Below are positions 36,610-52,836 of a stretch of 64,000 nucleotides of DNA, piece by piece. Below the pieces are notes generated by a model that was not told the origin of the DNA, did no database searches, and saw only the letters and a list, made by a program, of their open reading frames with translations. Each line of letters opens with the position of its first letter. The first letter of the stretch is position 1. Position numbers and translations under genes: made by a program. Origin of the DNA: Halobacteriovorax sp. HLS (GTDB lineage: Bacteria > Bdellovibrionota > Bacteriovoracia > Bacteriovoracales > Bacteriovoracaceae); assembly GCF_004006665.1 (NCBI RefSeq), contig NZ_QOCL01000014.1, positions 434,001-498,000 of the forward strand, written 5' to 3'.

Positions 36610-36626
36610 TAGGAATTAACCTACTA
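36607..36626. terminator. Short hairpin at a convergent junction
   Basis: A 7-bp stem TAGTAGG / CCTACTA (36607-36613 and 36620-36626) with a 6-nt loop. It includes both stop codons of the facing genes. T residues follow on the plus side (CTTTATATT), A-rich DNA on the other. The stem is weak but well placed. Confidence 0.45.
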
Positions 36627-37385
36627 CTTTATATTCTCAGAAAGGCCATTAAATAGAGAACCAATGATGGCCTTTTGCATTCTATTTAATTCATATACTT
36701 CGGCCATAATAACAACAGGGCTCTTTTTAATTGTCGCGGTAATTACAACCTGACCTTTTTCACTATTATATTCAATGATTTCGAAAGTACTATTAAAGTC
36801 CTTTTCATAATTCTTCATTATTTTTGCTTCAAGCTCTCCGCCCTCAGATGGATTAGGAATTCTGTCTCCTTCAACTTTTACTTGAATCAGCTTGTTTTTT
36901 TCATGCTCTTTTTTTCCCATAAGAATATCGTTGAAAATTATTCTTATAGATTTTGCTCCTAAATTAGACTTAAGTATGAACCAAAGCTCTTCAAAGAATG
37001 TCGTTCTATCATTTGGCCAAAGTCCGTTTAGATGATTAATTACTTTAAATAACTCTTCTACGAGAGTCACATTATTTTGAAGTAACCAGTTATCATGAAC
37101 TCGTGAGAAAATACTCTTAGCGCTATTAAAGTCTAATTTTTCAAAATTATTAAAATCAATATTCGCTTCTTTGGAAGATCTGATTGGGAAGAATTTACTA
37201 TCTTCTAGTAGAGCTGACTTTAAATCCTCACTTTCAATAAGGTCTTCTTCATAAAAAAGTGCTTGAATATCAGCGTTCTTTATTTCGGCCAAGTCTAATA
37301 TTTTACCATTATCATTTTCAATATTATTAAATGACTTTAAGAGAAATTGATTCTCCGACTTTATAAAACCTACATTGAATTGCAT
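36624..37385 (-). CDS. Uncharacterised soluble protein
   Basis: A 253-aa acidic protein, with no signal peptide or membrane segment. Residues about 1-90 are charged and mixed, and about 90-150 are helical ('NWLLQNNVTLVEELFKVINHLNGLWPND'). The C-terminal about 100 residues read as alpha/beta with 'ITATIKKSPVVIMAEVYELNRMQKAIIGSLF'. The 'W..L....TL..EL...L..LWP' helix is reminiscent of regulators with helical domains but I cannot name one. It is convergent with the lipoprotein gene at 35005. Confidence 0.6.
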   Translation of the reverse strand: MQFNVGFIKSENQFLLKSFNNIENDNGKILDLAEIKNADIQALFYEEDLIESEDLKSALLEDSKFFPIRSSKEANIDFNNFEKLDFNSAKSIFSRVHDNWLLQNNVTLVEELFKVINHLNGLWPNDRTTFFEELWFILKSNLGAKSIRIIFNDILMGKKEHEKNKLIQVKVEGDRIPNPSEGGELEAKIMKNYEKDFNSTFEIIEYNSEKGQVVITATIKKSPVVIMAEVYELNRMQKAIIGSLFNGLSENIK

Positions 37386-37524
37386 TTGTGTGTGTCCTGT
37401 CTAAATTTTTTCAAATTCTATCTTATGCCTTTAGAAATGTGAATAAGAGAAGGAGACAAGAGCATAATTAGAGGAAAAAAGCGCCGAAAATGCTTACTTA
37501 TGACACGTGTGGTAAAATTAATGC

Positions 37525-38157
37525 ATGAAATACTGTCTTCTTTTTGCGCTTATTTTTGTTAGTTTCGCTTCGTTTGGGCAAGATGAACGGCAATTTAGGG
37601 CGCTATTTTCTGCTGAGTTAAATAAGGATATTTCGAAGGAATCCGTGCAGAGCTACAAGTATGAAGTCAATACGCCACTATATAAAATTGATTTAAACTC
37701 TGATCATAGAAAGGAGTCTGTATTCTTTGAATCTAAAGACGGTGAGTCTTGGATACATATTCTTGGTTATGACCTCAAGAGAATTAAGTCATTTAAATTT
37801 GAAACAAATGGATATGGGGCAAATCTTTATAAAATCCGAATAAAAAACCTATCTGATACAACGCTTGTACTTGTTCTTTATTTTTATGAAGGTCTTACTA
37901 AGTACACCGAGTTAAATTCTACTTCGAGGCTTTATTTTTTAACAGTTGACCAAAATAGTTTGGATACTGTCTCTTTTAAAAAAGGACCTGTTTTTTGGGA
38001 AGAGAAGAGGACTCTGCAAGGTCACTATCATCAACGACCAAATTTTCTGAGTTTTGTTGATTTAAATAAAAATGGAACTAGAGAAATAATTGTTAAACAA
38101 GGATCTAGCTCTAGTGTTTATATGTATAACGGCGAAGGTCGCTGGATAGACTTCTGA
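37525..38157 (+). CDS. Exported protein with calcium-loop-like repeats
   Basis: A 210-aa protein with a signal peptide (MKYCLLFALIFVSFASFG). Two Asp/Asn-rich turns, 'YKIDLNSDHRKESVFF' near 55 and 'FVDLNKNGTREIIVKQ' near 185, have the D.N.DG.E.I pattern of VCBS/FG-GAP or EF-hand-like calcium loops. The intervening sequence is beta-rich ('ILGYDLKRIKSFKFE', 'TLVLVLYFYEGL'). It is probably periplasmic or surface-located. It lies 83 nt before the next lipoprotein gene in the same direction. The function is unknown. Confidence 0.65.
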   Translation: MKYCLLFALIFVSFASFGQDERQFRALFSAELNKDISKESVQSYKYEVNTPLYKIDLNSDHRKESVFFESKDGESWIHILGYDLKRIKSFKFETNGYGANLYKIRIKNLSDTTLVLVLYFYEGLTKYTELNSTSRLYFLTVDQNSLDTVSFKKGPVFWEEKRTLQGHYHQRPNFLSFVDLNKNGTREIIVKQGSSSSVYMYNGEGRWIDF

Positions 38158-38242
38158 CCAATCTACTCAAATAAAATTATTCAAGAAGAGCTTCAAAAAA
38201 CCGATAATTATATTAGCGTATATAAGAAATATTGGACTTTTG

Positions 38243-40138
38243 ATGAATAAGACTAGAATACTATTATCACTATCTTTCCTGCTGCTTTCAGCTTGTTCTA
38301 CTACTAAGGTGAATACAAGGGAAGTCGCCTCTCTTGGAGATGTTGCTCCTGCCGAAAAGGGAGCCTGTATTCAAGTCATTAAAACTTTTATAGGGGCCAA
38401 GAAAGTAGTTAAAAAGAAAGGATTGTCAGATTTTTTTCCTTCTAAATCTCCTTATGCTCCAGAAAAGTTAAAAGCACTTTCTAAAGTAGAGTCTGTCCTT
38501 TCGGATAAAGAATTTATTGTTAATGACTTCAGTTCAATTAGAAAAAGATTTAGTACTTACTCTTATTCTAAGATTTCCTCAGATTCTTCAAAAGAAGTGG
38601 ATGCTGTCGAGTTTAACACTTGGGTGCAGATGAATATGTCCAAGATTTCGTCAGAGCTATCAGATGAGTTAAGTTTTGCTCAAGCGTTTGATGAATTACT
38701 ACCTTTGTTTAAGAAATGGAAAATAGAAAATGGTTTTTCCTTTAAAAATCTTGCTAAGCTCAAAAAGAAAAGTCCAGAGTTTGTTAGTGCCAAGAAAGAT
38801 GTCATTTCTTTTGCTGCTGATGGATATAACTCGATAGTTAATAAGAAATTGTCGAATTACTCAAACTACAAAGAGTTTTTAGAAGATGCGGCAAATTCTA
38901 TTTCCAATTTTCACATCATTGAAGAGAACTTTCAAGGTGATGATTTCTTTAGATGGTTATCGGAGAATGACTTACTTTCAGATGAATTATTTAAAAAGAT
39001 GAAAAATAACGTGCAAGAAGATCAAACTATGGGAGACTTTTTGGCAGGAAATTACTCTACATTTCTTCCTTTCTCTAAGAAACCCCTAGGTCCAAAAAAG
39101 TCTGTAAGACAAAAAATGCAAGACTTTGTTGTTGGAATGTTTACTAAGCATGAATCTGCTTTAAAGAGTTGTGGTGATGACCCAGATTGTATTGCCAGAG
39201 AGTCTAGAACTTTCTTTGAAAAGTTAATGGGCGCAGATCGTTTTAAGAAAAACTTCAGTTGTTTAAGACAATTTCCACAGGCCAGAAACGCAATGTATGT
39301 AGATTTTGTAACCTCTTGGGCAATGTTAGGAATAATGTATAAGAGCAATGAGGATGAGTTCCAACGCTTTCCATGGGAGATTGCTACTAATGGTTTAATC
39401 TTTACACCTATAATGTCTGAAATCAATTGTCAGGCTTCTTTTCAGACGCGTAATGCTTTTGGTGGTGCAGTAAATCTAAGCAAGCAACCAAGTAAAACTG
39501 CCAGCTTCCTTAGAAATTGGAGAAGAATGGCCGGAGTAAGCCTTGTTTCAGGGGTCAGTCTTGTTGGACTTGGGGTTACATATAATGAGTTATATTCTTC
39601 ATTGGGAGTTCCTGTTGAAAATACTGGAAACTTACAAGAGCAGATTAAGTTATTGCCTTTTATGTTTATGTGGTCTGGAGTGTTAGGAAGTCTTAAAAAT
39701 ATCGCGATTACTAACCCTCTTAAATATAAAGTGATTCCTAAGCTTGCAGGTATGATTCAGACAAAAACAGGAATCGCCGCCACAGGTGTTGCCGGACTAA
39801 CGGCCTTAAATTTTGGCTTCGCCTCTGGAGCAGAATTTTATGAGAGTTGGAGCTTTAATGAAATATGGAGATATCATGTCCTTCCAAAGTATCTTGAGAT
39901 TGCAGGTTACGATAGAGAAGGTGATGAAGAGTTAAATGGTCGAACGACAATTAATGCATTTGATGAATCAAGAGATATATATATCACTGAATATGATAAT
40001 GGAGTTAAGACTAGTGTTACGGTTGAGAAGTCATATGATGATGAGGGAAAAGAGTATATCAAAGTTGAAGATATAGATTTAGAGATTCCAGACTATATTT
40101 TAGAAGAAAGTGTTGAAGGGATTCCTAAGGTCAACTAA
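38243..40138 (+). CDS. Large lipoprotein with C-terminal hydrophobic segments
   Basis: A 631-aa precursor starting at ATG 38243 (the adjacent TTG at 38240 is less likely), with lipobox 'LLLSACSTT'. Residues 40-400 are helical and Lys/Ser-rich, with cysteine pairs such as 'SCGDDPDC' near 310. The region 430-530 has three hydrophobic segments ('GVSLVSGVSLVGLGVTY', 'LLPFMFMWSGVLGSL', 'GIAATGVAGLTALNFGF'), unusual for a lipoprotein and suggesting membrane insertion or pore-like helices. The last 100 residues are acidic and soluble. No family is recognised. It is convergent with the small protein at 40140. Confidence 0.65.
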   Translation: MNKTRILLSLSFLLLSACSTTKVNTREVASLGDVAPAEKGACIQVIKTFIGAKKVVKKKGLSDFFPSKSPYAPEKLKALSKVESVLSDKEFIVNDFSSIRKRFSTYSYSKISSDSSKEVDAVEFNTWVQMNMSKISSELSDELSFAQAFDELLPLFKKWKIENGFSFKNLAKLKKKSPEFVSAKKDVISFAADGYNSIVNKKLSNYSNYKEFLEDAANSISNFHIIEENFQGDDFFRWLSENDLLSDELFKKMKNNVQEDQTMGDFLAGNYSTFLPFSKKPLGPKKSVRQKMQDFVVGMFTKHESALKSCGDDPDCIARESRTFFEKLMGADRFKKNFSCLRQFPQARNAMYVDFVTSWAMLGIMYKSNEDEFQRFPWEIATNGLIFTPIMSEINCQASFQTRNAFGGAVNLSKQPSKTASFLRNWRRMAGVSLVSGVSLVGLGVTYNELYSSLGVPVENTGNLQEQIKLLPFMFMWSGVLGSLKNIAITNPLKYKVIPKLAGMIQTKTGIAATGVAGLTALNFGFASGAEFYESWSFNEIWRYHVLPKYLEIAGYDREGDEELNGRTTINAFDESRDIYITEYDNGVKTSVTVEKSYDDEGKEYIKVEDIDLEIPDYILEESVEGIPKVN

Positions 40139-40156
40139 TTTAAGAGGCCTTAGGAA
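40122..40156. terminator. Inverted repeat at a convergent junction
   Basis: A 9-bp stem TTCCTAAGG / CCTTAGGAA (40122-40130 and 40148-40156) with a 17-nt loop contains both stop codons. No U run follows on either side, so termination would be modest. Confidence 0.4.
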
Positions 40157-40565
40157 AGTTCATATCATCATCGTCATTACTAGGCTTTTTCGAGTTTAGA
40201 TCAACTACATTATTAGGTGCTTCATGATCAAGATCTTTAACCCCTTTCATGAGTCCTAGCCAAACTGCAATAGGTAATACCATTACCATTAAAAGAACAA
40301 GAACTTGATTCGTTGTAGAAGTTGTCTTCTCTTGCATTTGATTTAGAGTCTTTTGTTTAACTTCTTTTTTAGTCTTTACAGGAGTTAGGGCCTTCGTTTT
40401 TTTCTGATTGAAGTTATAAGGCGTTGCCTTTTCAGGTGCTACATCATCGTACTGGTCAATTGATATCCCAGTAACTGGCTCGACGGCAGGCTTTCTCGCA
40501 AAAGACATATTTGTCATTAAAAACATAAAAAATACTAAAATTAGGCATTTACTGATTTGTCTCAT
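40140..40565 (-). CDS. Exported protein with C-terminal membrane helix
   Basis: A 141-aa protein. A signal-like hydrophobic N-terminus (about 7-24, 'CLILVFFMFLMTNMSFA') is followed by a Lys/Thr-rich periplasmic linker (about 25-85). A membrane helix (about 88-108, 'VLVLLMVMVLPIAVWLGL') and an acidic cytoplasmic tail with DDDD complete it. This architecture is shared by small envelope spacer or adaptor proteins. No family is recognised. It is divergent from the LuxC/LuxE-like operon, with a 140-nt shared region. Confidence 0.6.
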   Translation of the reverse strand: MRQISKCLILVFFMFLMTNMSFARKPAVEPVTGISIDQYDDVAPEKATPYNFNQKKTKALTPVKTKKEVKQKTLNQMQEKTTSTTNQVLVLLMVMVLPIAVWLGLMKGVKDLDHEAPNNVVDLNSKKPSNDDDDMNFPKAS

Positions 40566-40705: not shown

Positions 40706-41869
40706 ATGGAAACAAATATCGAAAAGGCAAATCTTAGTGATGTTAATGAATTACTTTCATTATATCTTAGTGTTTATGGCGAAGATTACCCATTAGAAGT
40801 TGGAACAAAACGCTCGGTTATGACTGATGCGCTTCAAAGACCTGAAGAGTTTTATTGGTACGTGATGAGATGCCCTGAGAAAAAAACGATAGCAGCTTCC
40901 GGAATTATTCAGGTCGATGTCCCAAATCAAATTGCAAAGCTTTCAGGTGTTGCTGTTCATAATGAATATAGAGAACATGGCCTGGCCACTAGATTAATTT
41001 CTTATGCTGTTAATGAAGTCCTAAGAGAAAAGAAAATAGTTAATTCAATTTATGCAACTGCTAGAACTATTTCTTACTCATCTCAAAATATGTTAATGAG
41101 AAATGGATTCATTCCATTAGGATTCTTTCCAAATTGTCGTAAAATAAAGTCATATGAAACACTTGCTCTCATGGCCATTTTCGGAGATGGGATTTTAGAA
41201 AAGCGAAATCCTATAAAAGCACTACCTGAGTCGATTTATTCATTTGCTTCTCTCGTCGAAAAAGAAATTTCAGGAAGAGAGAATTTTTATACTTGCCAAG
41301 AGCATACACCAAAAAAACCAAAGAGCTTTCACGATCTATCCTCAAAAGAAGGTGAATTTGAATTTATCTTTGCTCCAAAATTTGTTCAAAAAAGATTTGA
41401 TGAAATATTTAAAGATGATACGGAGTCTTTGTTTTATCCATTTCATCGTCCAAATTTACTAATCTCCAATATGGAAAATGGAATTGAGTTCTTTGCAGCA
41501 TTCAGTAAGAAAGATCACTACTGTGTGATTATCACTGCAAATAAAAATATATCAACTCTCGGAGAGAGTTTGAATAAAATGCTATTTGCGATGAAGGATA
41601 TTGGTATTTACTATGTTGAAACTATGGTTAGAACAGACCGTTTTGATGCGATTAGATATCTTACTGGAAATGATTTTTTGGCCTCGGCATTGTATCCAGC
41701 TATGAAAATAGAAAATGGAGTTCCACAAGATTATGTCCTACTAACTAGAACGATGGTTCCTTTAGACTTTAGTGAAATTTCAATTTCAGATAACTTAAGG
41801 CCTTATTTTGATCACTATGCTAAGCAGTGGATCGGAAATCATCTGAATACACTAAAGGTCGATGTATGA
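40706..41869 (+). CDS. GNAT acetyltransferase with a second GNAT-like C-terminal half
   Basis: A 387-aa protein. Residues about 1-170 are a GNAT domain: 'VAVHNEYREHGLATRLISYAV' is motif A with the R-x-x-G-x-A acetyl-CoA loop, and 'SSQNMLMRNGFIPLGFFPN' is motif B. About 210-387 is a weaker repeat of the fold, ending 'YLTGNDFLASALYPAMKI...DYVLLTRTM', the same 'GF....FPA.....D.V.L..' shape. The second half lacks a visible acetyl-CoA loop. It overlaps the LuxE-like gene by 4 nt (ATGA) and leads an operon with LuxC- and PaaK-like proteins, so it probably acylates a product or carrier of that pathway. Confidence 0.8.
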   Translation: METNIEKANLSDVNELLSLYLSVYGEDYPLEVGTKRSVMTDALQRPEEFYWYVMRCPEKKTIAASGIIQVDVPNQIAKLSGVAVHNEYREHGLATRLISYAVNEVLREKKIVNSIYATARTISYSSQNMLMRNGFIPLGFFPNCRKIKSYETLALMAIFGDGILEKRNPIKALPESIYSFASLVEKEISGRENFYTCQEHTPKKPKSFHDLSSKEGEFEFIFAPKFVQKRFDEIFKDDTESLFYPFHRPNLLISNMENGIEFFAAFSKKDHYCVIITANKNISTLGESLNKMLFAMKDIGIYYVETMVRTDRFDAIRYLTGNDFLASALYPAMKIENGVPQDYVLLTRTMVPLDFSEISISDNLRPYFDHYAKQWIGNHLNTLKVDV

Positions 41870-43020
41870 ATGAGTTAAAAGTTCCCAACGCTCAAAAACT
41901 TTTGAAAGTTCAACAGTTGTGTGACATCGAAACTCCATATAGTAATCATGCAAAGAGCGATGGGCTCTTTGTCGAAGCGATGAAAGAGAATATTCAATGG
42001 CATATCGAAAATAATGAATTTTACTCAAAGTTAATCAGCTCAAAGAATTTTAATATCAATGAATTTAACTCTATTGATGATCTTAAGAAAATTCCCTTCA
42101 TTATCGCAAATTTTTTTAAATTTCATGAAGTTAAATCTATAGATGATTCGGATGTTTCTTTACATTTAACATCATCTGGAACTACTGGACAAAAATCGCA
42201 AATATTCTTTGATGATTGGACAATTGGTAGTGCCCAAAGAATGGTTGATTGGATCTATCAAAGCAATGGGTGGATTACTGAAGATAAAACTAATTACCTT
42301 CTATTCACTTATGAACCCGAAGAGGGGAGTAAGCTAGGTACTGCTTATACAGATAACTTTCTATGTAAGTATGCCCCTATCAATGCTGTCCATTACGGAC
42401 TTCGTTATCTCGGAAAAAAAGAAGGACACAAGTTCGATGTCTTTGGTTGTATAGCGGCCCTTCAAAGGTATGAAAAGGAAGGTCTCCCTGTAAGAGTATT
42501 CGGATTTCCTTCATTCTTTTATTTTACTTTAACAAAGATGAAAGAATTTGGAATGGAGCCATTAAAACTAAATCCAGAGTCTTTAGTCTTCTTAGGAGGT
42601 GGTTGGAAAGGCCATCAGGATAAAGCAATCTCAAAGGATGAATTCTATTCTCTATGTGAAGAGATGTTAGGTATTCCAAATGCTCGACTTAGGGATGGAT
42701 TTGGTTCTGTAGAGCATTGTATACCTTATATTGAATGCTCTAAGCATCGCTTTCATATCCCTACGTGGTCTAGAGTTCTTGTAAGAGACGTTTTAACTTT
42801 AGAAAGTTTAGAAGATGGTGAAATTGGATATCTTAATTTTATATCACCTTACATTACATCGGTACCTGCTAATAATGTCTTAATGGGAGATTTAGCGAGA
42901 AAGTATTCAAAGTGCGAATGTGATTTAGATACACCTTGGTTTGAAGTCCTAGGGCGCGCTGGTATCTCTAAAAATAAAAGCTGTGCAGTCGCTGCAAGTG
43001 AATTGTTGGATAAGGTATAA
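41866..43020 (+). CDS. LuxE-like acyl-protein synthetase
   Basis: A 384-aa member of the LuxE/acyl-protein synthetase family, part of the ANL-type adenylating enzymes without a separate C-terminal lid. The start at ATG 41866 overlaps the preceding stop. 'HLTSSGTTGQKSQIFFDD' is the adenylation P-loop; 'YLLFTYEPEEG' and 'VFGFPSFFYFTL' follow. 'LVFLGGGWKGHQ' and 'RDGFGSVEHCIPYIEC' are signature regions of LuxE. In luminous bacteria LuxE activates fatty acids as acyl-AMP and passes them through a Cys for reduction by LuxC. A LuxC homologue is the next gene. There is no luxA or luxB, so it is not bioluminescence. Confidence 0.88.
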   Translation: MNELKVPNAQKLLKVQQLCDIETPYSNHAKSDGLFVEAMKENIQWHIENNEFYSKLISSKNFNINEFNSIDDLKKIPFIIANFFKFHEVKSIDDSDVSLHLTSSGTTGQKSQIFFDDWTIGSAQRMVDWIYQSNGWITEDKTNYLLFTYEPEEGSKLGTAYTDNFLCKYAPINAVHYGLRYLGKKEGHKFDVFGCIAALQRYEKEGLPVRVFGFPSFFYFTLTKMKEFGMEPLKLNPESLVFLGGGWKGHQDKAISKDEFYSLCEEMLGIPNARLRDGFGSVEHCIPYIECSKHRFHIPTWSRVLVRDVLTLESLEDGEIGYLNFISPYITSVPANNVLMGDLARKYSKCECDLDTPWFEVLGRAGISKNKSCAVAASELLDKV

Positions 43021-43021
43021 T

Positions 43022-45412
43022 ATGAAGATTTTAGCGAAAAACCTTGAGGTTATTAGTAAGGATCAACTTGAGGCCTTGGTGGAAGAGTCATTGGAGTTAG
43101 AGTTATCACTAAGTGATTTAATAAGTACTCTTGATGACTTTTCTAAAAAAGTACTAGAGCTGGACTATGACCGCGAACTTCTAAATGAAGTTTCTAAGTT
43201 TTGCTCGAAAGAAGAAATTGAAAATAAAGTAAATGTTGAGCTTGGCTCTCTTGATTCTTTTAGTCTTAAGAAAGAGGATTTTAGCTCTGTTGCGATGGAA
43301 AGCTTCTATCCATTAGGAGTTGTTCTCCATATCACGCCATCAAATTCTCCAGGTCTTTCCTTTCTTGCGATGGTCGAGTCCTTATTAGGTCTAAATACAA
43401 ATATTGTAAAAGTCAGCCGTAGAGATTCTGATGAGATATTTGATTTTTGCAATTTATTATTCGAATGTGATCAAAGTGGGAAAATAAAAGATAAGACGAT
43501 TATATTGAAATCAAGTGATCTTGAATTGTCTGAGTTAATAAATGTAAGTGATGCTGTTTCTTGTTGGGGTGGAGATTCTTCAATAGAGACTATTCGTCAA
43601 AGTGTGCCAGTAAGCAAAAGATTCATTCCGTGGGGACATAAAATTTCATTTTCCTTAATATCTAGGAGTGTTTCTTATATAGAGTCTGCTAAAAAGTTGG
43701 CAGAGGATATTGTAAAGTTCGATCAGCAAGCATGTTCTGCTCCACAGATATGCTATCTTTTAGATGCTAACTTTGAAACTCTTAAAGAATTTTCAGGTGT
43801 TTTATCTAAAGAGTTAGATAGATTAAGTGAGTCTAAGCAGCTAGCAACGCTAGATATTCAAGAGCAAGCAGAGCTTACAAATATTAAAGAGCTATTAAAC
43901 TTAGAATCTCTTTTTAATGAAAAGATGGTCCTTGAGAGTAACACTAATAGTTGGCGGATTTATATTGAAATGGATTCGACCTTTAAAGCATCTCCACTTA
44001 AGAGATCTATTTGGGTTAAGCCTATTACTAAAAATTCTTTAATACCTATTCTAAGACAACACAGATCTCACTTACAAACTGCTGGGATTCTTCTAGGAGA
44101 AGAGTTTTCTGATATAACTAAACAGCTCTATAAGGCCGGAGTTGTAAGAGTTAGAGAATTAGGAACTATGCAAGACTCATACTCTGGTGAACCACATGAT
44201 GGTGAGCAGGCCCTCAGAAGGTTTGTAAAGAGAATCTCTCTGGATGTTCCTCAATTGAAGACAAAGTATAGATTTAGTGAGCTTGCATTAGAACAGAGGG
44301 CTAAAAGAGTTTCAAAAGTTATGACTAAGGAAGACTTTCAGGCGTTGGTTCCAAAGCATGAACTGGCCCACCTATTCTTTAGAAGTGGAGGAAGTTCTGG
44401 AAAAACTGCAATTTCCCCGTTTTCCTATAATGCTTACCATACTCAAATGCAGGCCGCTGCAGAAGGTCTGTACGCCGCTGGACTTGATCCTATGAGTGAT
44501 CGTGTTGCAAACCTCTTTTTTGGGGGAGGACTTTATGGAGGTTTTTTAAGCTTTTACACAATTTTAGAAAAGCTTAAAGTTGTTCAATATCCATTAGCGG
44601 CTTATGAAGACAAGTGTTTTGTAGCATCTATATTGGCAGAATGTGAGGTTAATACGATAGTCGGAATGCCTTCTTACATTATTGAACTATATGAATCTCA
44701 AAAAGAACTTTTAAAAAAATCAAAAATAAAGAAAATATTCTTTGGTGGTGAACACTTTGGTAAGAAGCAGCGTCAATGGCTGTGTGATGAATTTGGTGTA
44801 GAGCTTATTCGCTCTGCAAGCTATGGCTCTGTTGATGCTGGTCCGCTTGGATTTCAGTGTGAATATTCTGAAGGTGGTATTCATCACTTAAATGAATCAA
44901 TACAGGACCTTGAGATTTTAAAGGTCGACTCGGACGAAGCTGTAGAAAGTGGAGAGATTGGAAGACTTGTCTTTACATCTAAGGCCAGAGATTGTGTTGA
45001 TATTGAACGGTATGACTTAGGAGATCTGGGCCGATGGATTACTGATACTTGCCCTTGTGGACGTAAGAATAGGAAATTTGAATTATTAGGAAGGCATGGG
45101 GATATTTTTAGAGCAGGTGGAACATTCTTTAATTTTCTTAAATTTCAAAAATTGCTCTTAGATGAGTTTGAGTATGATGACTCGTTTCAAATAGTGATTA
45201 CAAATAATAATTCTAAAGATCATCTTCTGCTGAGAGTTGTTGACAAGAAAATTACAAATTCCTTAGTTGTTGAAAAATATAGGGATCTTAAAGAAGCTAT
45301 TGAAGTTGAAAAAATGCTTCTCTTCGATATTGATTATACCTCTCACGAAGGGATGGACCATTCTTCAAACAGTGGAAAGCTATTACGAGTTATAGATAAG
45401 AGGATTATATGA
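43022..45412 (+). CDS. Acyl-CoA reductase (LuxC-like) fused to a PaaK/LuxE-like adenylation domain
   Basis: A 796-aa fusion. Residues 1 to about 420 form a LuxC-type acyl reductase: 'YPLGVVLHITPSNSPGLSFLAMVESLLGLNTNIVKVSRRD' is the nucleotide-binding half, and 'FDQQACSAPQICYLL' carries the catalytic Cys238. Residues about 440-796 form an adenylation domain with P-loop 'FRSGGSSGKT' near 454. Also seen are 'VANLFFGGGLYGGF', 'TIVGMPSYIIEL', 'KKIFFGGEHF', 'SASYGSVDAGPLG' and 'YDLGDLGRW'. A C-terminal 'NSGKLLRVIDKR' ends the protein. Joining the activating and reducing steps in one chain implies channelling of an acyl-thioester or acyl-AMP to aldehyde. It is 1 nt after the LuxE-like gene and overlaps the next by 4 nt. 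Confidence 0.85.
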   Translation: MKILAKNLEVISKDQLEALVEESLELELSLSDLISTLDDFSKKVLELDYDRELLNEVSKFCSKEEIENKVNVELGSLDSFSLKKEDFSSVAMESFYPLGVVLHITPSNSPGLSFLAMVESLLGLNTNIVKVSRRDSDEIFDFCNLLFECDQSGKIKDKTIILKSSDLELSELINVSDAVSCWGGDSSIETIRQSVPVSKRFIPWGHKISFSLISRSVSYIESAKKLAEDIVKFDQQACSAPQICYLLDANFETLKEFSGVLSKELDRLSESKQLATLDIQEQAELTNIKELLNLESLFNEKMVLESNTNSWRIYIEMDSTFKASPLKRSIWVKPITKNSLIPILRQHRSHLQTAGILLGEEFSDITKQLYKAGVVRVRELGTMQDSYSGEPHDGEQALRRFVKRISLDVPQLKTKYRFSELALEQRAKRVSKVMTKEDFQALVPKHELAHLFFRSGGSSGKTAISPFSYNAYHTQMQAAAEGLYAAGLDPMSDRVANLFFGGGLYGGFLSFYTILEKLKVVQYPLAAYEDKCFVASILAECEVNTIVGMPSYIIELYESQKELLKKSKIKKIFFGGEHFGKKQRQWLCDEFGVELIRSASYGSVDAGPLGFQCEYSEGGIHHLNESIQDLEILKVDSDEAVESGEIGRLVFTSKARDCVDIERYDLGDLGRWITDTCPCGRKNRKFELLGRHGDIFRAGGTFFNFLKFQKLLLDEFEYDDSFQIVITNNNSKDHLLLRVVDKKITNSLVVEKYRDLKEAIEVEKMLLFDIDYTSHEGMDHSSNSGKLLRVIDKRII

Positions 45413-46653
45413 GTAGTTACTCTTTTTCAGAGTTATTAGAATTTGTACGAGAAAAATCGCCATACTATAAAAATCTCTATAGTGAGTTGCCAACTGATGT
45501 GAAAATTGAGCAATTACCAATAACTGATCAAGAAGTGTTTTGGAATAATAATTCGTTTCATGGTAACTCGGTCATGACTGATAGATTTTCAGATGGAGTT
45601 GTTTTTAAAAGTGGAGGAACTACCGGAAATCCAAAATTTAGTATCTTTACTAAAAGTGAGTGGGATCAATTTACGACTGACTTTGGTAAGGGGATGGATA
45701 AACTCAAAATGAAAGATGGTGATAGATGCGCTAATCTTTTTTACTCAGGTGATCTCTATGCTTCATTTTTATTTATTAATAAATGTGTCGAAAAAATGAA
45801 AACCTCTGTTACTCAATTTCCTGTAACCGGTCAAACTGATGTAGAAGAAACTCTACGCATAATAAAAGAATATGATGTAAATGTTTTATTAGGAGTTCCA
45901 ACTTCCCTGATTAATTTAACTTCGCATTGTAATGTTGATATGTCTCATGTAGATCAAATATATTATGGTGGAGAGCCGTTATTTGAAGATCAAAAGGAAA
46001 TTCTTCTAAGAACATTTCCTAACGCTTATATTTCGTCAATAGGATATGCAAGTGTTGATGGTGGTCAGCTTGGTTATGTGGATGATTCTTGCTCTTTAGG
46101 AGAGCATCGAGTTTTTGAAACAACTATTATGGAAATCGTTGACGAAGACACGGGCGAAATTATTAAAGAAGTAAATAGAGTTGGAAAGCTAGTCTTTACT
46201 AATCTAACGCGAAAGCTTATGCCTATCATAAAGTATCCTGTGGGCGATATGGCCAGCTGGACTGAGGTTGGAACTAAATTTAAGTTATTAGGTAGATCGG
46301 ATGAAGGGGCTAGAGTGGGTCCTATTACAATAAATAGGGATGATATACTTTCTATTTTCAGATCTTTAGATATCGAAAAACAAATTCAAAACTTTCAAAT
46401 GATTATCGATAGAAATAATTCAAAAGACTTCTTGAAGCTTGTTATTGGCTCTGCCGATGAGGAGTCTTTGAAAGAGTGCCTTGAAAAGTTGGACTTAATT
46501 CAGGCCTTCTATAAGCAAAGAAAAATGTATTTGACTGAGCTTGAGAAAGGGCTTGTAGAGAAGTTTTGCTATGAGGTTGTAAATATTGATAAATTAACGA
46601 AGAATCCTAGAACAGGTAAACTAAGATTAGTTATAGATAAGAGACATAATTAA
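45409..46653 (+). CDS. Stand-alone PaaK/CapK-like adenylating enzyme
   Basis: A 414-aa phenylacetate-CoA ligase-like protein. The P-loop 'FKSGGTTGNPKF' is near residue 67; 'CANLFYSGDLYASFLF', 'VLLGVPTSLINL', 'DQIYYGGEPLFEDQ', 'SIGYASVDGGQLG' and 'YPVGDMASW' follow. 'RTGKLRLVIDKRHN' ends it. These segments align, in the same order, with the C-terminal half of the preceding fusion, so one arose from the other by duplication. It may activate a second acid or serve as a partner subunit. Overlap of 4 nt with the fusion shows co-translation. The substrate is unknown. Confidence 0.82.
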   Translation: MSSYSFSELLEFVREKSPYYKNLYSELPTDVKIEQLPITDQEVFWNNNSFHGNSVMTDRFSDGVVFKSGGTTGNPKFSIFTKSEWDQFTTDFGKGMDKLKMKDGDRCANLFYSGDLYASFLFINKCVEKMKTSVTQFPVTGQTDVEETLRIIKEYDVNVLLGVPTSLINLTSHCNVDMSHVDQIYYGGEPLFEDQKEILLRTFPNAYISSIGYASVDGGQLGYVDDSCSLGEHRVFETTIMEIVDEDTGEIIKEVNRVGKLVFTNLTRKLMPIIKYPVGDMASWTEVGTKFKLLGRSDEGARVGPITINRDDILSIFRSLDIEKQIQNFQMIIDRNNSKDFLKLVIGSADEESLKECLEKLDLIQAFYKQRKMYLTELEKGLVEKFCYEVVNIDKLTKNPRTGKLRLVIDKRHN

Positions 46654-46719: not shown

Positions 46720-48081
46720 TTGAAAATTCTTGTTGCTCAATCAAATTTAAAACAAAAAGATAGATTCAACCTCTATCTTGATAATTTACCTACAAATGTT
46801 GAGGTATTTGAAGTAGCGAACTATGTTCAATTGCAAAGCTCTTTAGAGCAGATGGATGATATTGATCTGGTGATTGCTAGTCATGATAGCTCCACTTTAG
46901 AGGGAATGAAGATCTCTACTTTTATATCTCAATCACATGAGTGTGATCTGATTGTTAATTCAGATAGTTCCTTAGAAGAGAATTTTGAAAGAAAGTCTTT
47001 TGATGCTCTTGGAGATAGGGCACATCAAATCGAAAATAAAATAAATTGTGAATCATTTCATAATTTAATTTTAGATATTCTTAAAAGAAGAAAAGAATTA
47101 AATTTTGCTTATACGCAAGAGAAATATCGAAAAGTACGACTAATATACTTTCTACGATTTAATAGAGTTTTGTGTGATGTATTTATAAAGATTGGTGAAG
47201 ATAAATTTGTTAAGGTCTTAAAGAAAGATGACATTTATACTCGTGAGGATTTACAAAAATATCGTGATAAAGAAGTAAAATACCTCTATATCGATAATGA
47301 TGACTACGATGACTTTGGAGCAGGGCTTGCTCAAACACCGTTTCTAATTGAGGACAAATCTTTGTCTGCTGAATTTGTTGAAGATGCAGTTATAAACACA
47401 TTGGATATAGTTCACGAAATGGTTGCAGAGTCGGGTGTTACTGAAGAAGTATTAAACCTTGTAGATTATACTGTTTTTCAAATTGAAAATAACCTAGATG
47501 ATGATCGAGTCTTAGGAAAGTTATTAGATAATTTTAGAGGTCGAAAAGATTATATTCTTGATCATAGTTATATGATGGCATACTTTTCTAATTCTATTTG
47601 TTCTCATATGGATTGGGACTCTGAAGAAATTAGAAAGAAACTCTCTTATGCTGCTATTTTGCAAGACTTAACTGTTAGTGACGCTAAGATTGCATATGAT
47701 GTAAATTTACAAACAGCTGAAATGATCAATTACTCAGTTGAAGAGATCGAGATCTATAAGAAGCACCCTGAAACGATAGCAAAACTTATTGCAAATAATG
47801 ATAAGATTCCATTGAATGTAGATGAGATTGTATTATGTCATCATGAAAGGCCTGAAGGGACTGGCTTTCCAAGAGGGTTAAGTCATCATCGTGTATCTCA
47901 GTTAACAGCTGTTTTTATCGTAGCTCATGTATTTGTTGATGAGCTTTATAGGTGCGAGTTTGAATTAGATAAAATCACTGAGATTCTAGAAAGAATGAAA
48001 GTTTCATATGATTTCGGAAACTATAAAAAGCCATTCCAGGGGCTTGTAAATGTGTTCAAAAAAACGCTTCTAGTCGGTTAG
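46720..48081 (+). CDS. Degenerate HD-GYP domain protein
   Basis: A 453-aa protein starting at TTG 46720, with GGA 7 nt upstream. Residues 1-115 look like a degenerate receiver-type domain. About 130-205 is a beta-rich middle, and about 215-453 an HD-GYP-like domain. The first His ('DHSYMMAYFSN') and 'LCHHERPEGTGFP' (the HHE..GTGYP region) are present. The HD motif itself reads 'ILQDLTV' (HD to QD, and the following GK lost), and the late Asp in 'VAHVFVDEL' is displaced. Metal ligands are thus partly missing. It is probably not an active c-di-GMP phosphodiesterase, and may act as a binding or signalling platform. Confidence 0.78.
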   Translation: MKILVAQSNLKQKDRFNLYLDNLPTNVEVFEVANYVQLQSSLEQMDDIDLVIASHDSSTLEGMKISTFISQSHECDLIVNSDSSLEENFERKSFDALGDRAHQIENKINCESFHNLILDILKRRKELNFAYTQEKYRKVRLIYFLRFNRVLCDVFIKIGEDKFVKVLKKDDIYTREDLQKYRDKEVKYLYIDNDDYDDFGAGLAQTPFLIEDKSLSAEFVEDAVINTLDIVHEMVAESGVTEEVLNLVDYTVFQIENNLDDDRVLGKLLDNFRGRKDYILDHSYMMAYFSNSICSHMDWDSEEIRKKLSYAAILQDLTVSDAKIAYDVNLQTAEMINYSVEEIEIYKKHPETIAKLIANNDKIPLNVDEIVLCHHERPEGTGFPRGLSHHRVSQLTAVFIVAHVFVDELYRCEFELDKITEILERMKVSYDFGNYKKPFQGLVNVFKKTLLVG

Positions 48082-49001: not shown

Positions 49002-49658
49002 TTAGTAGTTTTGGAAAAGAGTTTCATCCCATTGATCCTTAGGGGAGTTTTTGATGAAAGAGAGAACTGAACGGCATAAGAAGCGCACATTTCTTTCGTT
49101 AAACTCTTCTGAGAAGTGTTTAAGATTACACACTTTTTCTCTGATTATAGAAGAGTTGAGAATAATTGCCGTGTGAGTAATATGTGAGAAAATAATTTTC
49201 ATTGCCCAGTAGCGAGCATCCATTGAAACTTCCTCTCCAACCTCTTTAGTAATTATCTCAAGAAGTATTCCTCCTCCAGGAGGTCCAAAGTGTCCATTCT
49301 CATCACTGACATGTTCTTTAGGGATTTGTACATTATCATTTAAAATAACCTTAAAGGTTGTTAATAGTGAATGTCCATTCTCTAGAAAGTGCCTAAAGGC
49401 CGTTATTGTGAACTCTTCAGTAGTCATTTCTTGTCCTTCAAGAACGACTTTAAAGATCTTCTCAAATTCACAACAATTTTGATCGAATAATTCACAATAT
49501 AAATTATTTTTATTCTTAAAGTGATAATTTACTGCCGCTAAGTTAACCCCTGCTTCTTTGGCAATATCTCTAATTGATGTGCCATCGAAACCATAGTTAG
49601 CAAATAGTTTGTTGGCACTTTCAAGAATTTTAGCTTTAGTCTCATTTACTTTTGTCAT
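49002..49658 (-). CDS. TetR-family transcriptional regulator
   Basis: A 218-aa regulator. The start at ATG 49658 is used because the frame further upstream runs into the end of the RND gene. The TetR helix-turn-helix is 'TKAKILESANKLFANYGFDGTSIRDIAKEAGVNLAAVNYHFKNK', matched as separate short segments: 'LFANYGFDGTSIRDIA' and 'GVNLAAVNYHFKNK'. The C-terminal ligand domain resembles that of CerR/TetR_C_24-like repressors of lipophilic-compound pumps. Being last in the tolC-RND-tetR operon, it is probably the local repressor; a palindrome in the promoter fits its operator. Confidence 0.92.
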   Translation of the reverse strand: MTKVNETKAKILESANKLFANYGFDGTSIRDIAKEAGVNLAAVNYHFKNKNNLYCELFDQNCCEFEKIFKVVLEGQEMTTEEFTITAFRHFLENGHSLLTTFKVILNDNVQIPKEHVSDENGHFGPPGGGILLEIITKEVGEEVSMDARYWAMKIIFSHITHTAIILNSSIIREKVCNLKHFSEEFNERNVRFLCRSVLSFIKNSPKDQWDETLFQNY

Positions 49659-49668
49659 TAGACACCCA

Positions 49669-52600
49669 TTATACAGGCTCGTTTGCCATATCACTAGTTT
49701 CTTCGTCTATCTTTTTTCTATTAAGAAGTTTTCCTGTGAAATTTGTGAAATCTTCAATAATTGCATACGCAGGAGGAATAAAAGATAGTGTCAAAATCGT
49801 TCCTGAAACAAGCCCCCAGGCCATGGCCATAGTCATTGGGACTAAAGTAGGGTCAGAACCACCAACACCATAGGCGGTAGGAAGAAGTCCACTTACAGTT
49901 GTTAAAGATGTTACTAGTACTGCTCTAAGTCTCATTCCTGAAGCTTTAACTAGAATTTCATCTAAAGAGAACTTACCTTCAGCTCTCATTTCATCAATAA
50001 ATGAGATTAGAACGATTCCTGAGTTCACAATAATTCCTGCCAGACCAATAATACCAATTAGGGCCAAGAATGAAACAGGCCTTGGGCGATCCATATATCC
50101 ACTTAGAATTGGGGTTGCAAATGCAATTGAAAACCCGAGTAATCCAAGAGGAATAGTCATCATAATGATAAGTGGTCTTAAGTATGATTTAAATAGAAAT
50201 ACAAGTATTGCAAAAATTCCGATTGAGGCCATGAGACCGGCTTGGGCCAAGCTTTCCATAGACTCTTTCGTCGATTCAGCAACTCCTCCAAATACTAAAG
50301 ATACACTTGGGTATTGAGACTTTAGCTCGTCATATGTTTCTTTTAAGATATTATTAGCATCCATTTGAGTTATCTTTGTCTCATTTACAGAGCCTGATAA
50401 GTTCTTTGATCTTTTAAAGTCAAATCTCTTTATTTGGGGAGAACCTGGTCTAGTTTCAAAGGTTGCAAAAGTTCCAATTGGAACAAGATTTCCTCTTTGA
50501 TCAAGGATATGTACATTCTTTAATTGCTCTATGTTCTGTCTATTTTTCTCTTGTAAGCTTACACGAAGATCAACATCTTTATTATTTAAAGTTACCTCTG
50601 AAATAACTCGTCCAGAGATTGCACTCCTAACAGTGTCTCCAGAAGTGAAGACTCCAAGCCCTAATTGATCGGCCTTAATATAATCAATATTAATAAAGAC
50701 TTCATCATCACCAATAACATCATCTACTTTTAAGTCAATAATACCGTCAACAGATGAGAGCCTATCTTTTACTTTTCCAATAAATGCGTCTAGCTCTTCA
50801 CCATTATTTGATCTAAAGGTTGCATCAATGTCGCTTCCTACTGGAGGACCATTAACTTGGGCCTCAAATGTTAGAGACGAGTATCCGTCAGAAGAGATAT
50901 TCGATCTTAGTTTTTCTAAGGCATCAGTGTGAGTAAGATTAATTTTAGCTTCGTCAGTAACATAGATAAAAACGATCCCAACATTATTACCTTCAGAAGC
51001 TTTAGGATCAGTTAATTGTACTTTTGATTCTCCAGACTTCGTAACAATATGCTTTATATCGTCACCAAGAACATCTTTAATTTTTAAAGATAACTCTCTG
51101 GCCTTCAAATTGGTTTCTTCAAGTTTTGTACCATTTGGAAGTTCAAATCTAGAGATATAAATTTCGGTTTGATCAGCAGGGAAGAGAATAAACTTATTTC
51201 CAACTGTCATCATACCTATTGCAAATACTATTAAGAAGGTAAATCCAGTCGCCGCAATATATCTTCTTCTGATTAGTAGGGCCATGAACACTTCAAACTT
51301 CTGTTCAAATTTGTGAAACCAGTCTTTCTTTGCTTCGTTATTCTCGTCAAGCTTAATACTATTTCCAGCAGAGACAAGTCTCATTGGAAGAAAGAAAAAA
51401 CTTTCAACAAGCGACAGAAGAAGAGAGATCGTCACAACGATTGGAATCCACTTTATGAATTGACCCATGATGCCTTTCGTAACAAGCATCGGCAAAAATG
51501 CTGCAATAGTTGTAAAGGCGGTGGCAGTTATCGGTAACCAGAGAGATCGAATCGACTCTAAAGCAGCTTCTTCGGGAGATCTCCCTTCTTGTCTTAATCG
51601 TGTAAAATTCTCACTTATAACAACAGAGTTATCTACTAGCATCCCAAGAGCGATAACTAGAGCAAGAATGGTAATAGTATTTAAATTCATTCCAAATGCT
51701 GGCATGATTCCTAAGGTACCCATAACAGCTAGTGGAAGTGATAAAGATGCCATAATTCCAATTCTTCCAGGAAGGAAGATAAATAGGAAAACGACAACAA
51801 GTAATAACCCAGAGAGTGCATTATTTGCTAAAACATCTAGTTTATCTTTTACCTTTATTGATTCGTTTAGATATACTTCAAACTTTACTTTCCCATCGTA
51901 AATTTTTTCAAACTCTTTCATTTTAAGTTCAACATTATTTACAAGTTTAATAGTATCAGCACCTGCTTTTTTAGTCACAGTAACTAGCGATGCTTCTTCG
52001 CCATTGTATCTTGTACGAACTTTAATTTCTTCTTCACCATCTACAACGGTTGCAACATCTTTTAGATATATGGATTGCCCTGTAAAGTTTGATCTAATTA
52101 GGACATTGCCTAACTCTTGGGCGTTTTTAATTTTACCTTCAAGCCTTAGTAACTGTTGAGTAGAAGCCTGCTTAAGATTTCCACCCGGAATATTAACGTT
52201 TCTGGCTTGAATTTTTGCGATGACTTCACTCATTCCAATATGATGCTTTATAAGGGCTTCATTATTAATTTCAATCTGAAATGTTCTCTTTGCAAATCCT
52301 GATAGTGTAACACCTTTAACGAGAGGGTTATCTTCTAATTCATCTTTTAATTGATCGGCAATAAGGTCTCTATTTCTGTTTGTATTATCTGCAATTACTG
52401 CAATTTGAAAAACAGGCATCTCTTCCGATTTAATCTCTGTAAACTTTGGTCTATCAATTAGATCGTTTGGAAGTTTTGTTGTTCGGTCTACTGCTTTTTG
52501 GATATCATTCATAACCGTTTCTACAACAAGTCCCGATCTATCCATATCAACTCTAATTACGATGGTACTAAGACCTGATTGGCTTATTGATTTTACATCT

Positions 52601-52836
52601 TTTAACCCACTCACTGAACGAATTTCATCTTCGATTGGCTTTGTTATTTTAGTTTCGATATCTTCGGCCGTCGCTCCATCATATCTAGTCGTAACTAATG
52701 CGGTTGCAAAACTCACATTAGGATATGATTCGGCATTCATTTTCTTGAGGCCCATCGCTCCATAAATAATTAGACCTATCATGAGAATGATGGAGAGCTT
52801 ATTATTGTCTATAAAGAAGTGTGCAATTTTTTTCAT
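49669..52836 (-). CDS. RND-family inner-membrane efflux transporter
   Basis: A 1055-aa AcrB/HAE-type or MMPL-neighbouring RND pump with 12 membrane helices and two large periplasmic loops. The N-terminus 'FFIDNNKLSIILMIGLI' and 'ESYPNVSFATALVTTRYDGATAEDIETKIT' follow the family pattern. The proton-relay segment in helix 4 reads 'GMLVDNSVVISENF', with VDN in place of AcrB's VDD. 'RSLWLPITATAFTTIAAFLPM' and the helix 11-12 region 'VLVTSLTTVSGLLPTAYG' are present. It is encoded between a TolC homologue and a TetR regulator, but no membrane-fusion protein is present in the operon. Confidence 0.93.
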   Translation of the reverse strand: MKKIAHFFIDNNKLSIILMIGLIIYGAMGLKKMNAESYPNVSFATALVTTRYDGATAEDIETKITKPIEDEIRSVSGLKDVKSISQSGLSTIVIRVDMDRSGLVVETVMNDIQKAVDRTTKLPNDLIDRPKFTEIKSEEMPVFQIAVIADNTNRNRDLIADQLKDELEDNPLVKGVTLSGFAKRTFQIEINNEALIKHHIGMSEVIAKIQARNVNIPGGNLKQASTQQLLRLEGKIKNAQELGNVLIRSNFTGQSIYLKDVATVVDGEEEIKVRTRYNGEEASLVTVTKKAGADTIKLVNNVELKMKEFEKIYDGKVKFEVYLNESIKVKDKLDVLANNALSGLLLVVVFLFIFLPGRIGIMASLSLPLAVMGTLGIMPAFGMNLNTITILALVIALGMLVDNSVVISENFTRLRQEGRSPEEAALESIRSLWLPITATAFTTIAAFLPMLVTKGIMGQFIKWIPIVVTISLLLSLVESFFFLPMRLVSAGNSIKLDENNEAKKDWFHKFEQKFEVFMALLIRRRYIAATGFTFLIVFAIGMMTVGNKFILFPADQTEIYISRFELPNGTKLEETNLKARELSLKIKDVLGDDIKHIVTKSGESKVQLTDPKASEGNNVGIVFIYVTDEAKINLTHTDALEKLRSNISSDGYSSLTFEAQVNGPPVGSDIDATFRSNNGEELDAFIGKVKDRLSSVDGIIDLKVDDVIGDDEVFINIDYIKADQLGLGVFTSGDTVRSAISGRVISEVTLNNKDVDLRVSLQEKNRQNIEQLKNVHILDQRGNLVPIGTFATFETRPGSPQIKRFDFKRSKNLSGSVNETKITQMDANNILKETYDELKSQYPSVSLVFGGVAESTKESMESLAQAGLMASIGIFAILVFLFKSYLRPLIIMMTIPLGLLGFSIAFATPILSGYMDRPRPVSFLALIGIIGLAGIIVNSGIVLISFIDEMRAEGKFSLDEILVKASGMRLRAVLVTSLTTVSGLLPTAYGVGGSDPTLVPMTMAMAWGLVSGTILTLSFIPPAYAIIEDFTNFTGKLLNRKKIDEETSDMANEPV

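Follow-up and report, generated by a model that had tools for sequence, protein, structure and literature searches.

In luminous bacteria, LuxC and LuxE together form the fatty acid reductase complex (PDB 7xc6). Genes of this kind are also found in loci that do not produce light: luxE, luxC and the gene of an AMP-dependent synthetase occur together in islands for flagellin glycosylation in Aeromonas and enterobacteria (PMC4875605, PMC7874193), and mel2, a lux-like locus with a LuxC-like protein, shields Mycobacterium marinum from reactive oxygen and nitrogen species (PMC1793995). GriC and GriD of grixazone biosynthesis pair the adenylation of a carboxylic acid with its reduction to the aldehyde (PMC10179220). 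The present analysis deals with a cassette of four genes located at positions 40706-46653 of a 64,000-nucleotide stretch of DNA (hereafter the window) from Halobacteriovorax sp. HLS (GCF_004006665.1, contig NZ_QOCL01000014.1, positions 434,001-498,000, forward strand). The genes encode, in this order, a tandem GNAT protein, a LuxE-type acyl-protein synthetase, a LuxC acyl reductase with a fused adenylation domain of the PaaK type, and another, stand-alone PaaK-type enzyme. The reading preferred here, to which sequence comparisons give a probability of about one half, is that the cassette would be a self-contained, horizontally mobile operon producing a small aldehyde or an aldehyde-derived molecule, with its own exporter in many lineages.

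The LuxC and LuxE of the cassette are homologous to those of luminous bacteria and share both catalytic Cys residues with them; however, the cassette includes no luciferase, its LuxC is extended at the C-terminus by a PaaK domain, and the operon also encodes a tandem GNAT and another PaaK. In the glycosylation islands, LuxE and LuxC lie among pse and glycosyltransferase genes together with an acyl carrier protein and a ketoreductase, whereas here they stand alone, with LuxC fused to PaaK and with a GNAT. GriC/GriD and the EhpF/EhpG pair of phenazine clusters carry out adenylation and reduction to aldehyde separately, as parts of natural product pathways, and both lie within larger acid-making clusters; the likeness to GriC/GriD is one of chemistry only, and EhpF structures are a weak match to the profile of the stand-alone PaaK. 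The PaaK-type ligases (phenylacetate-CoA ligase, ClxA, NatL2, AjiA1) share fold and adenylation motifs with the modules of the cassette, but no solved one is fused to LuxC. Carboxylic acid reductase has its adenylation, carrier and reductase parts in that order in one chain, whereas in the fusion LuxC comes first and PaaK second, with no Pfam carrier domain. In relation to the GNAT, a review states that Pat-type GNATs act on AMP-forming acyl-CoA synthetases by acetylation of the A10 lysine (PMC4053389), and another work describes ACT-GNAT sensor fusions of actinobacteria that acetylate AMP-forming ligases (PMC6434083). In the operon, a tandem GNAT lies beside its possible targets or appears fused to an RsbW-like HATPase. 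Thus, LuxE/LuxC without light was already known, whereas the combination of LuxC-PaaK with a second PaaK and a tandem GNAT was not found described in the literature searched, with most subscription journals outside its scope. This agrees with the original prediction, made from the sequence of the window alone, that no described pathway holds this exact set of genes.

The list of open reading frames (ORFs) of the window contains four of them on the plus strand, at 40706-41869, 41827-43020, 42983-45412 and 45409-46653, although it overstates their overlaps. The first gene (40706..41869, 387 aa) encodes the tandem GNAT, as supported by Pfam (PF00583, 5.1e-08), a structure model and Foldseek. The LuxE ORF (PF04443, 3.9e-31; 108.7 bits against a cut-off of 24.9) is open from GTG 41827, but the most likely start codon is ATG 41866, because it forms an ATGA overlap with the GNAT stop; the predicted gene is then 41866..43020 (384 aa), with the codon of the C-terminal acyl-acceptor Cys at 42982-42984. 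The ORF of the fusion (PF05893, 5.3e-79; 266.4 bits against a cut-off of 21) is open from GTG 42983 and most likely starts at ATG 43022, 1 bp past the LuxE stop (43022..45412, 796 aa). Within it, the LuxC part occupies approximately 43163-44230 (codon of the catalytic Cys, 43733-43735) and the fused PaaK domain approximately 44327-45409 (codon of the A10 Lys, 45377-45379). The stand-alone PaaK-type adenylating enzyme (45409..46653, 414 aa; AMP-binding family PF00501, 1.8e-07; A10 Lys codon at 46618-46620) follows through another ATGA overlap. The four genes had been described as overlapping, which holds for two of the three junctions (4 bp each) and not for that between LuxE and the fusion, where a 1-bp gap is found; the coupling is still tight. 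A membrane segment is likely in none of the four proteins (highest 19-residue Kyte-Doolittle mean, 1.31).

Pfam and NCBIfam matches confirm that the four predicted kinds of protein are present. For the fused PaaK domain, the Pfam match to AMP-binding_C_2 (0.001) is under the cut-off of that family, and NCBIfam PaaK models span residues 448-807. None of the equivalog cut-offs is reached: the scores are 95 bits against 750 for LuxC (NF052251), 101.8 against 550 for LuxE (NF052244) and, for phenylacetate-CoA ligase (TIGR02155, cut-off 646 bits), 72.6 for the fusion and 61.6 for the stand-alone PaaK. The catalytic Cys of the fusion aligns with that of LuxC in the solved LuxC-LuxE complex (7xc6_A) and is invariant among 44 aligned fusions. 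LuxE matches the other partner of the same complex (7xc6_E, 2.7e-24), and its C-terminal Cys is invariant in 26 aligned sequences. The A7, A8 and A10 residues, which we take to be the Asp, Arg and Lys of the superfamily motifs, are invariant in both PaaK modules (23 aligned sequences for the stand-alone enzyme). The latter is related by profile to PDB 4r1l (2.4e-30). The model of the fusion (predicted local distance difference test, pLDDT, 87.6; predicted template modelling score, pTM, 0.78) gave Foldseek matches to LuxC of 7xc6 and to PaaK-type ligases. The GNAT model has two domains (pLDDT 88.6) and its full-length Foldseek matches are the tandem GNATs 2wpw, 2wpx and 3tt2. Its second half, which is strongly conserved, with P245, F246, P249, G300, E305 and D342 invariant among 46 sequences, looks like a diverged GNAT domain in view of its secondary structure and of these tandem-GNAT matches.

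Relatives of the cassette were collected in one scan of 84,980 species genomes, which gave 194 stretches; the best 80 loci were retained, the fusion was usable in 79 of them, and neighbours were scored within five genes. LuxE was found near the fusion in 69/79 loci, a second PaaK in 69/79 and some GNAT in 66/79, and the exact order GNAT-LuxE-LuxC/PaaK-PaaK in 48/79, skipping MFS and unassigned ORFs. The loci with the exact order include Bdellovibrionota, Actinomycetota, Pseudomonadota and Candidatus Melainabacteria. LuxE gaps in GC-rich actinomycetes are probably in part losses of ORF calling, caused by overlong ORFs. The fusion is present in at least nine phyla, one archaeon included, and consequently the idea of a local curiosity of one genus was rejected. 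Among 95 genomes of the window's family, 47 have both GNAT and LuxE, 46 have neither, one has GNAT alone and one LuxE alone (these two being G025 and G034, a fragmented assembly). The Fisher p value of this co-occurrence is 7e-25, or 4e-11 when counted by genus, and both values are indicative because the genomes are related. Chance adjacency was therefore rejected on the basis of the conserved gene order and of this co-occurrence.

Some minor observations concern the same genes. In a Bdellovibrionaceae bin (L073:9752-12253), LuxC and PaaK are two adjacent, separate ORFs, which reflects either a true division of the gene or a fault of the assembly. Within the window's family, two LuxE matches (G068:C10:101356-102426 and G091:C40:8339-9412) are each interrupted by a single in-frame stop in the alignment of the search. 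A second tandem-GNAT subfamily is found away from the operon (L132:8458-9639, L133:8790-9968, L134:8685-9878, L135:85-1365 and L136:7689-8873), near signalling genes in several genomes of the family. The GNATs outside the operon in G020 and G083 were not used as evidence of linkage in trans, because they belong to a paralogous-looking subfamily which is present alongside the operon GNAT in G022 and G028; the genes around them offered no clue.

The fusion tree intermixes phyla, with six changes for Bdellovibrionota and a single clade for Actinomycetota; since it was quickly built, has long branches and includes a number of metagenome bins, it suggests rather than proves horizontal transfer of the fusion. 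Plasmid copies were also found. A Streptomyces plasmid has the order PaaK-MFS-GNAT-LuxE-LuxC/PaaK, and two Salmonella enterica plasmids (CP054717.1, L143:7680-13438; CP053580.1, L142:7680-12557) contain LuxE-LuxC/PaaK-PaaK near recombinase genes. Both Salmonella plasmids are typed as conjugative, an adjoining GNAT is annotated in one of them, and the two copies are 99.8% identical across this stretch. Searches of phages gave partial matches only, and no DNA closely matching the copy on the Salmonella plasmid was found in E. coli genomes.

From these data we infer each reaction of the operon, as well as its substrate, its product and the export of that product. LuxE would adenylate a carboxylic acid and bind the acyl group through a thioester to its C-terminal Cys; the group would then be moved to the LuxC Cys and reduced with NAD(P)H to the aldehyde. 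This sequence of acid activation, relay to LuxC and reduction is the best-supported core of the proposal, since the chemistry of the luminescence enzymes is established and the residues are kept. The fused and the stand-alone PaaK may adenylate a second acid. Alternatively, the fused PaaK could load the Cys of LuxC directly, similarly to a carboxylic acid reductase, with LuxE serving another acid. The GNAT may transfer an acetyl or acyl group, the acceptor being either the product or the adenylating enzymes at their A10 lysine, and the output of the operon may be tuned by signalling modules that differ among lineages. An activating and reducing operon for fatty acids had been predicted: the LuxE Cys, the LuxC Cys and the three adenylation sites are intact, whereas a fatty acid is only one of the candidate substrates. 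The ligands of solved PaaK-type relatives named in the entry titles are phenylacetate, 3-amino-4-hydroxybenzoate, salicylate and 2-hydroxyisobutyrate, and for this reason aromatic or small acids are considered just as probable as fatty acids. The precursors presumably come from common metabolism, since no synthase, aminotransferase or glycosyltransferase recurs in the operon across the loci.

Export is suggested by a major facilitator superfamily (MFS) transporter, forming a single sequence cluster, which lies inside or adjoins the operon in 22 loci, and by a MATE pump encoded in the archaeal operon. This is a transporter of the type that handles soluble molecules, and it bears on the proposal that the operon serves to modify a glycan, lipid or protein of the surface, with LuxE and LuxC giving an acyl or alkyl group of the envelope. 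Such a role would fit the gene set of the glycosylation islands of Aeromonas and enterobacteria, and acylation of a protein Cys is natural to LuxE. Nevertheless, pse, maf, glycosyltransferase and flagellar genes do not recur among the annotated neighbours of the operon loci, plasmid copies included, which led to the rejection of a flagellin glycosylation island, and the operon is found in streptomycetes and in an archaeon, whose envelopes are quite different. Envelope modification is thus considered unlikely, and an exported small molecule is favoured over the lipid or surface molecule originally proposed as outcome, since the MFS transporter recurs and glycosyltransferase or envelope genes do not. 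Still more improbable is a supply of fatty aldehyde or a stress defence in the style of lux or mel2, with the aldehyde consumed within the cell. The homology of LuxC and LuxE and the protection that mel2 confers would be consistent with it, but mel2 has no clear LuxE and relies on genes similar to those of LuxA, LuxG and LuxH, none of which recurs in the cassette, and the LuxC and LuxE scores are far from the equivalog cut-offs given above. Moreover, no match to Bac_luciferase (PF00296, LuxA/LuxB) was found in this genome, the control having matched in 10 of 14; the predicted absence of luxA and luxB is therefore upheld and a role in luminescence was rejected. PF02273 (LuxD) was likewise unmatched in this genome, in a search whose control was also without any match. 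The genome contains one LuxE and one strong LuxC, plus a weak LuxC match of 21.7 bits against the cut-off of 21.

A different question is whether the GNAT belongs to the biosynthesis at all, as it could be a dedicated lysine acetyltransferase which turns off the operon's own adenylating enzymes through the A10 lysine, as Pat does, with the HATPase as sensor in some lineages. This reading is compatible with that preferred for the other three genes. In six loci (five betaproteobacterial and the archaeal one) the GNAT falls into a cluster of longer proteins that carry an RsbW-like HATPase_c_2 domain, supported by Pfam in L101 and L121 and by a weak HATPase profile in L108 and L128, L107 and L109 being cluster relatives. 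In Methanomassiliicoccus (L121:3693-14177) the order is AMP-binding, SpoIIE/HATPase, STAS, HATPase/GNAT, LuxE, LuxC/PaaK and MATE/HATPase, that is, a whole SpoIIE-STAS-HATPase partner-switch set together with a MATE pump to which a HATPase domain is fused. It is the fusion of HATPase to GNAT, resembling the ACT-GNAT sensor fusions, that makes the regulatory option a serious one. The tight co-occurrence with adenylating enzymes, the invariance of the A10 Lys, the action of Pat on AMP-forming ligases, and the closest PDB relatives by profile, which are protein N-acetyltransferases (weak matches), also argue for it. Against this, an invariant A10 Lys is expected of any active ligase, the operon contains no deacetylase, and many small-molecule acetyltransferases are among the fold matches. 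On balance, a regulatory GNAT is somewhat improbable but deserves attention, and the earlier proposal that the GNAT acylates the product is one of two options, since it may be a lysine acetyltransferase instead. A more speculative extension, held as rather doubtful, is that of a minimal mobile operon of bacteria and an archaeon producing an aldehyde-based signal or antagonist under RsbU/V/W-type switching, in which the HATPase-GNAT would gate the biosynthetic enzymes.

Several points weigh against the preferred reading of a mobile operon for an exported aldehyde-derived molecule. The window's own operon has no transporter gene, a deep variant (L048-L051, about 25% identity) has no stand-alone PaaK, and the GNAT or the second PaaK is often missing from Bacillota and Bacteroidota loci, so that not every part is essential. 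The proposal does not explain three adenylating sites for a single reductase. Besides, neighbouring regulators in single loci may be due to chance, which does not easily account for the HATPase-GNAT fusion and the archaeal switch operon. SpoIIE genes adjoin the operon in L094, L102, L110, L101 and L109 (on the opposite strand in L101), and GGDEF genes lie upstream of it in L108 and L128. If the proposal is true, the known uses of LuxE/LuxC chemistry, in light and in the modification of glycans, would be joined by a mobile pathway for small molecules, and partner-switch signalling would be linked directly to metabolism by the HATPase-GNAT fusion. A general role of the product is likely, as one compact gene set is shared by predatory bacteria, actinomycetes, betaproteobacteria and an archaeon. 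Counting four genes, or five if the MFS transporter is included, the pathway is compact enough for complete reconstitution.

Other genes surround the operon in the window. A degenerate HD-GYP-type protein (46720..48081, plus strand, 453 aa; PF13487, 1.3e-09) is encoded 66 bp downstream, with QD instead of the HD motif and GFP instead of GYP, and it occupies the same place in L052, L053, L054 and L127. It is probably a lineage-specific companion outside the core cassette, possibly an inactive effector of the cyclic di-GMP type. Upstream, at 36624-40565, there are uncharacterised genes of 253, 210, 632 and 141 aa, without any Pfam family above cut-off, whose order is conserved across the genus and, in part, across the family. 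Further downstream, at 49002-52836 on the minus strand, a TetR-type regulator (TetR_N, Pfam) lies beside a large ORF which, as read from its sequence, is presumably an RND-like efflux protein.

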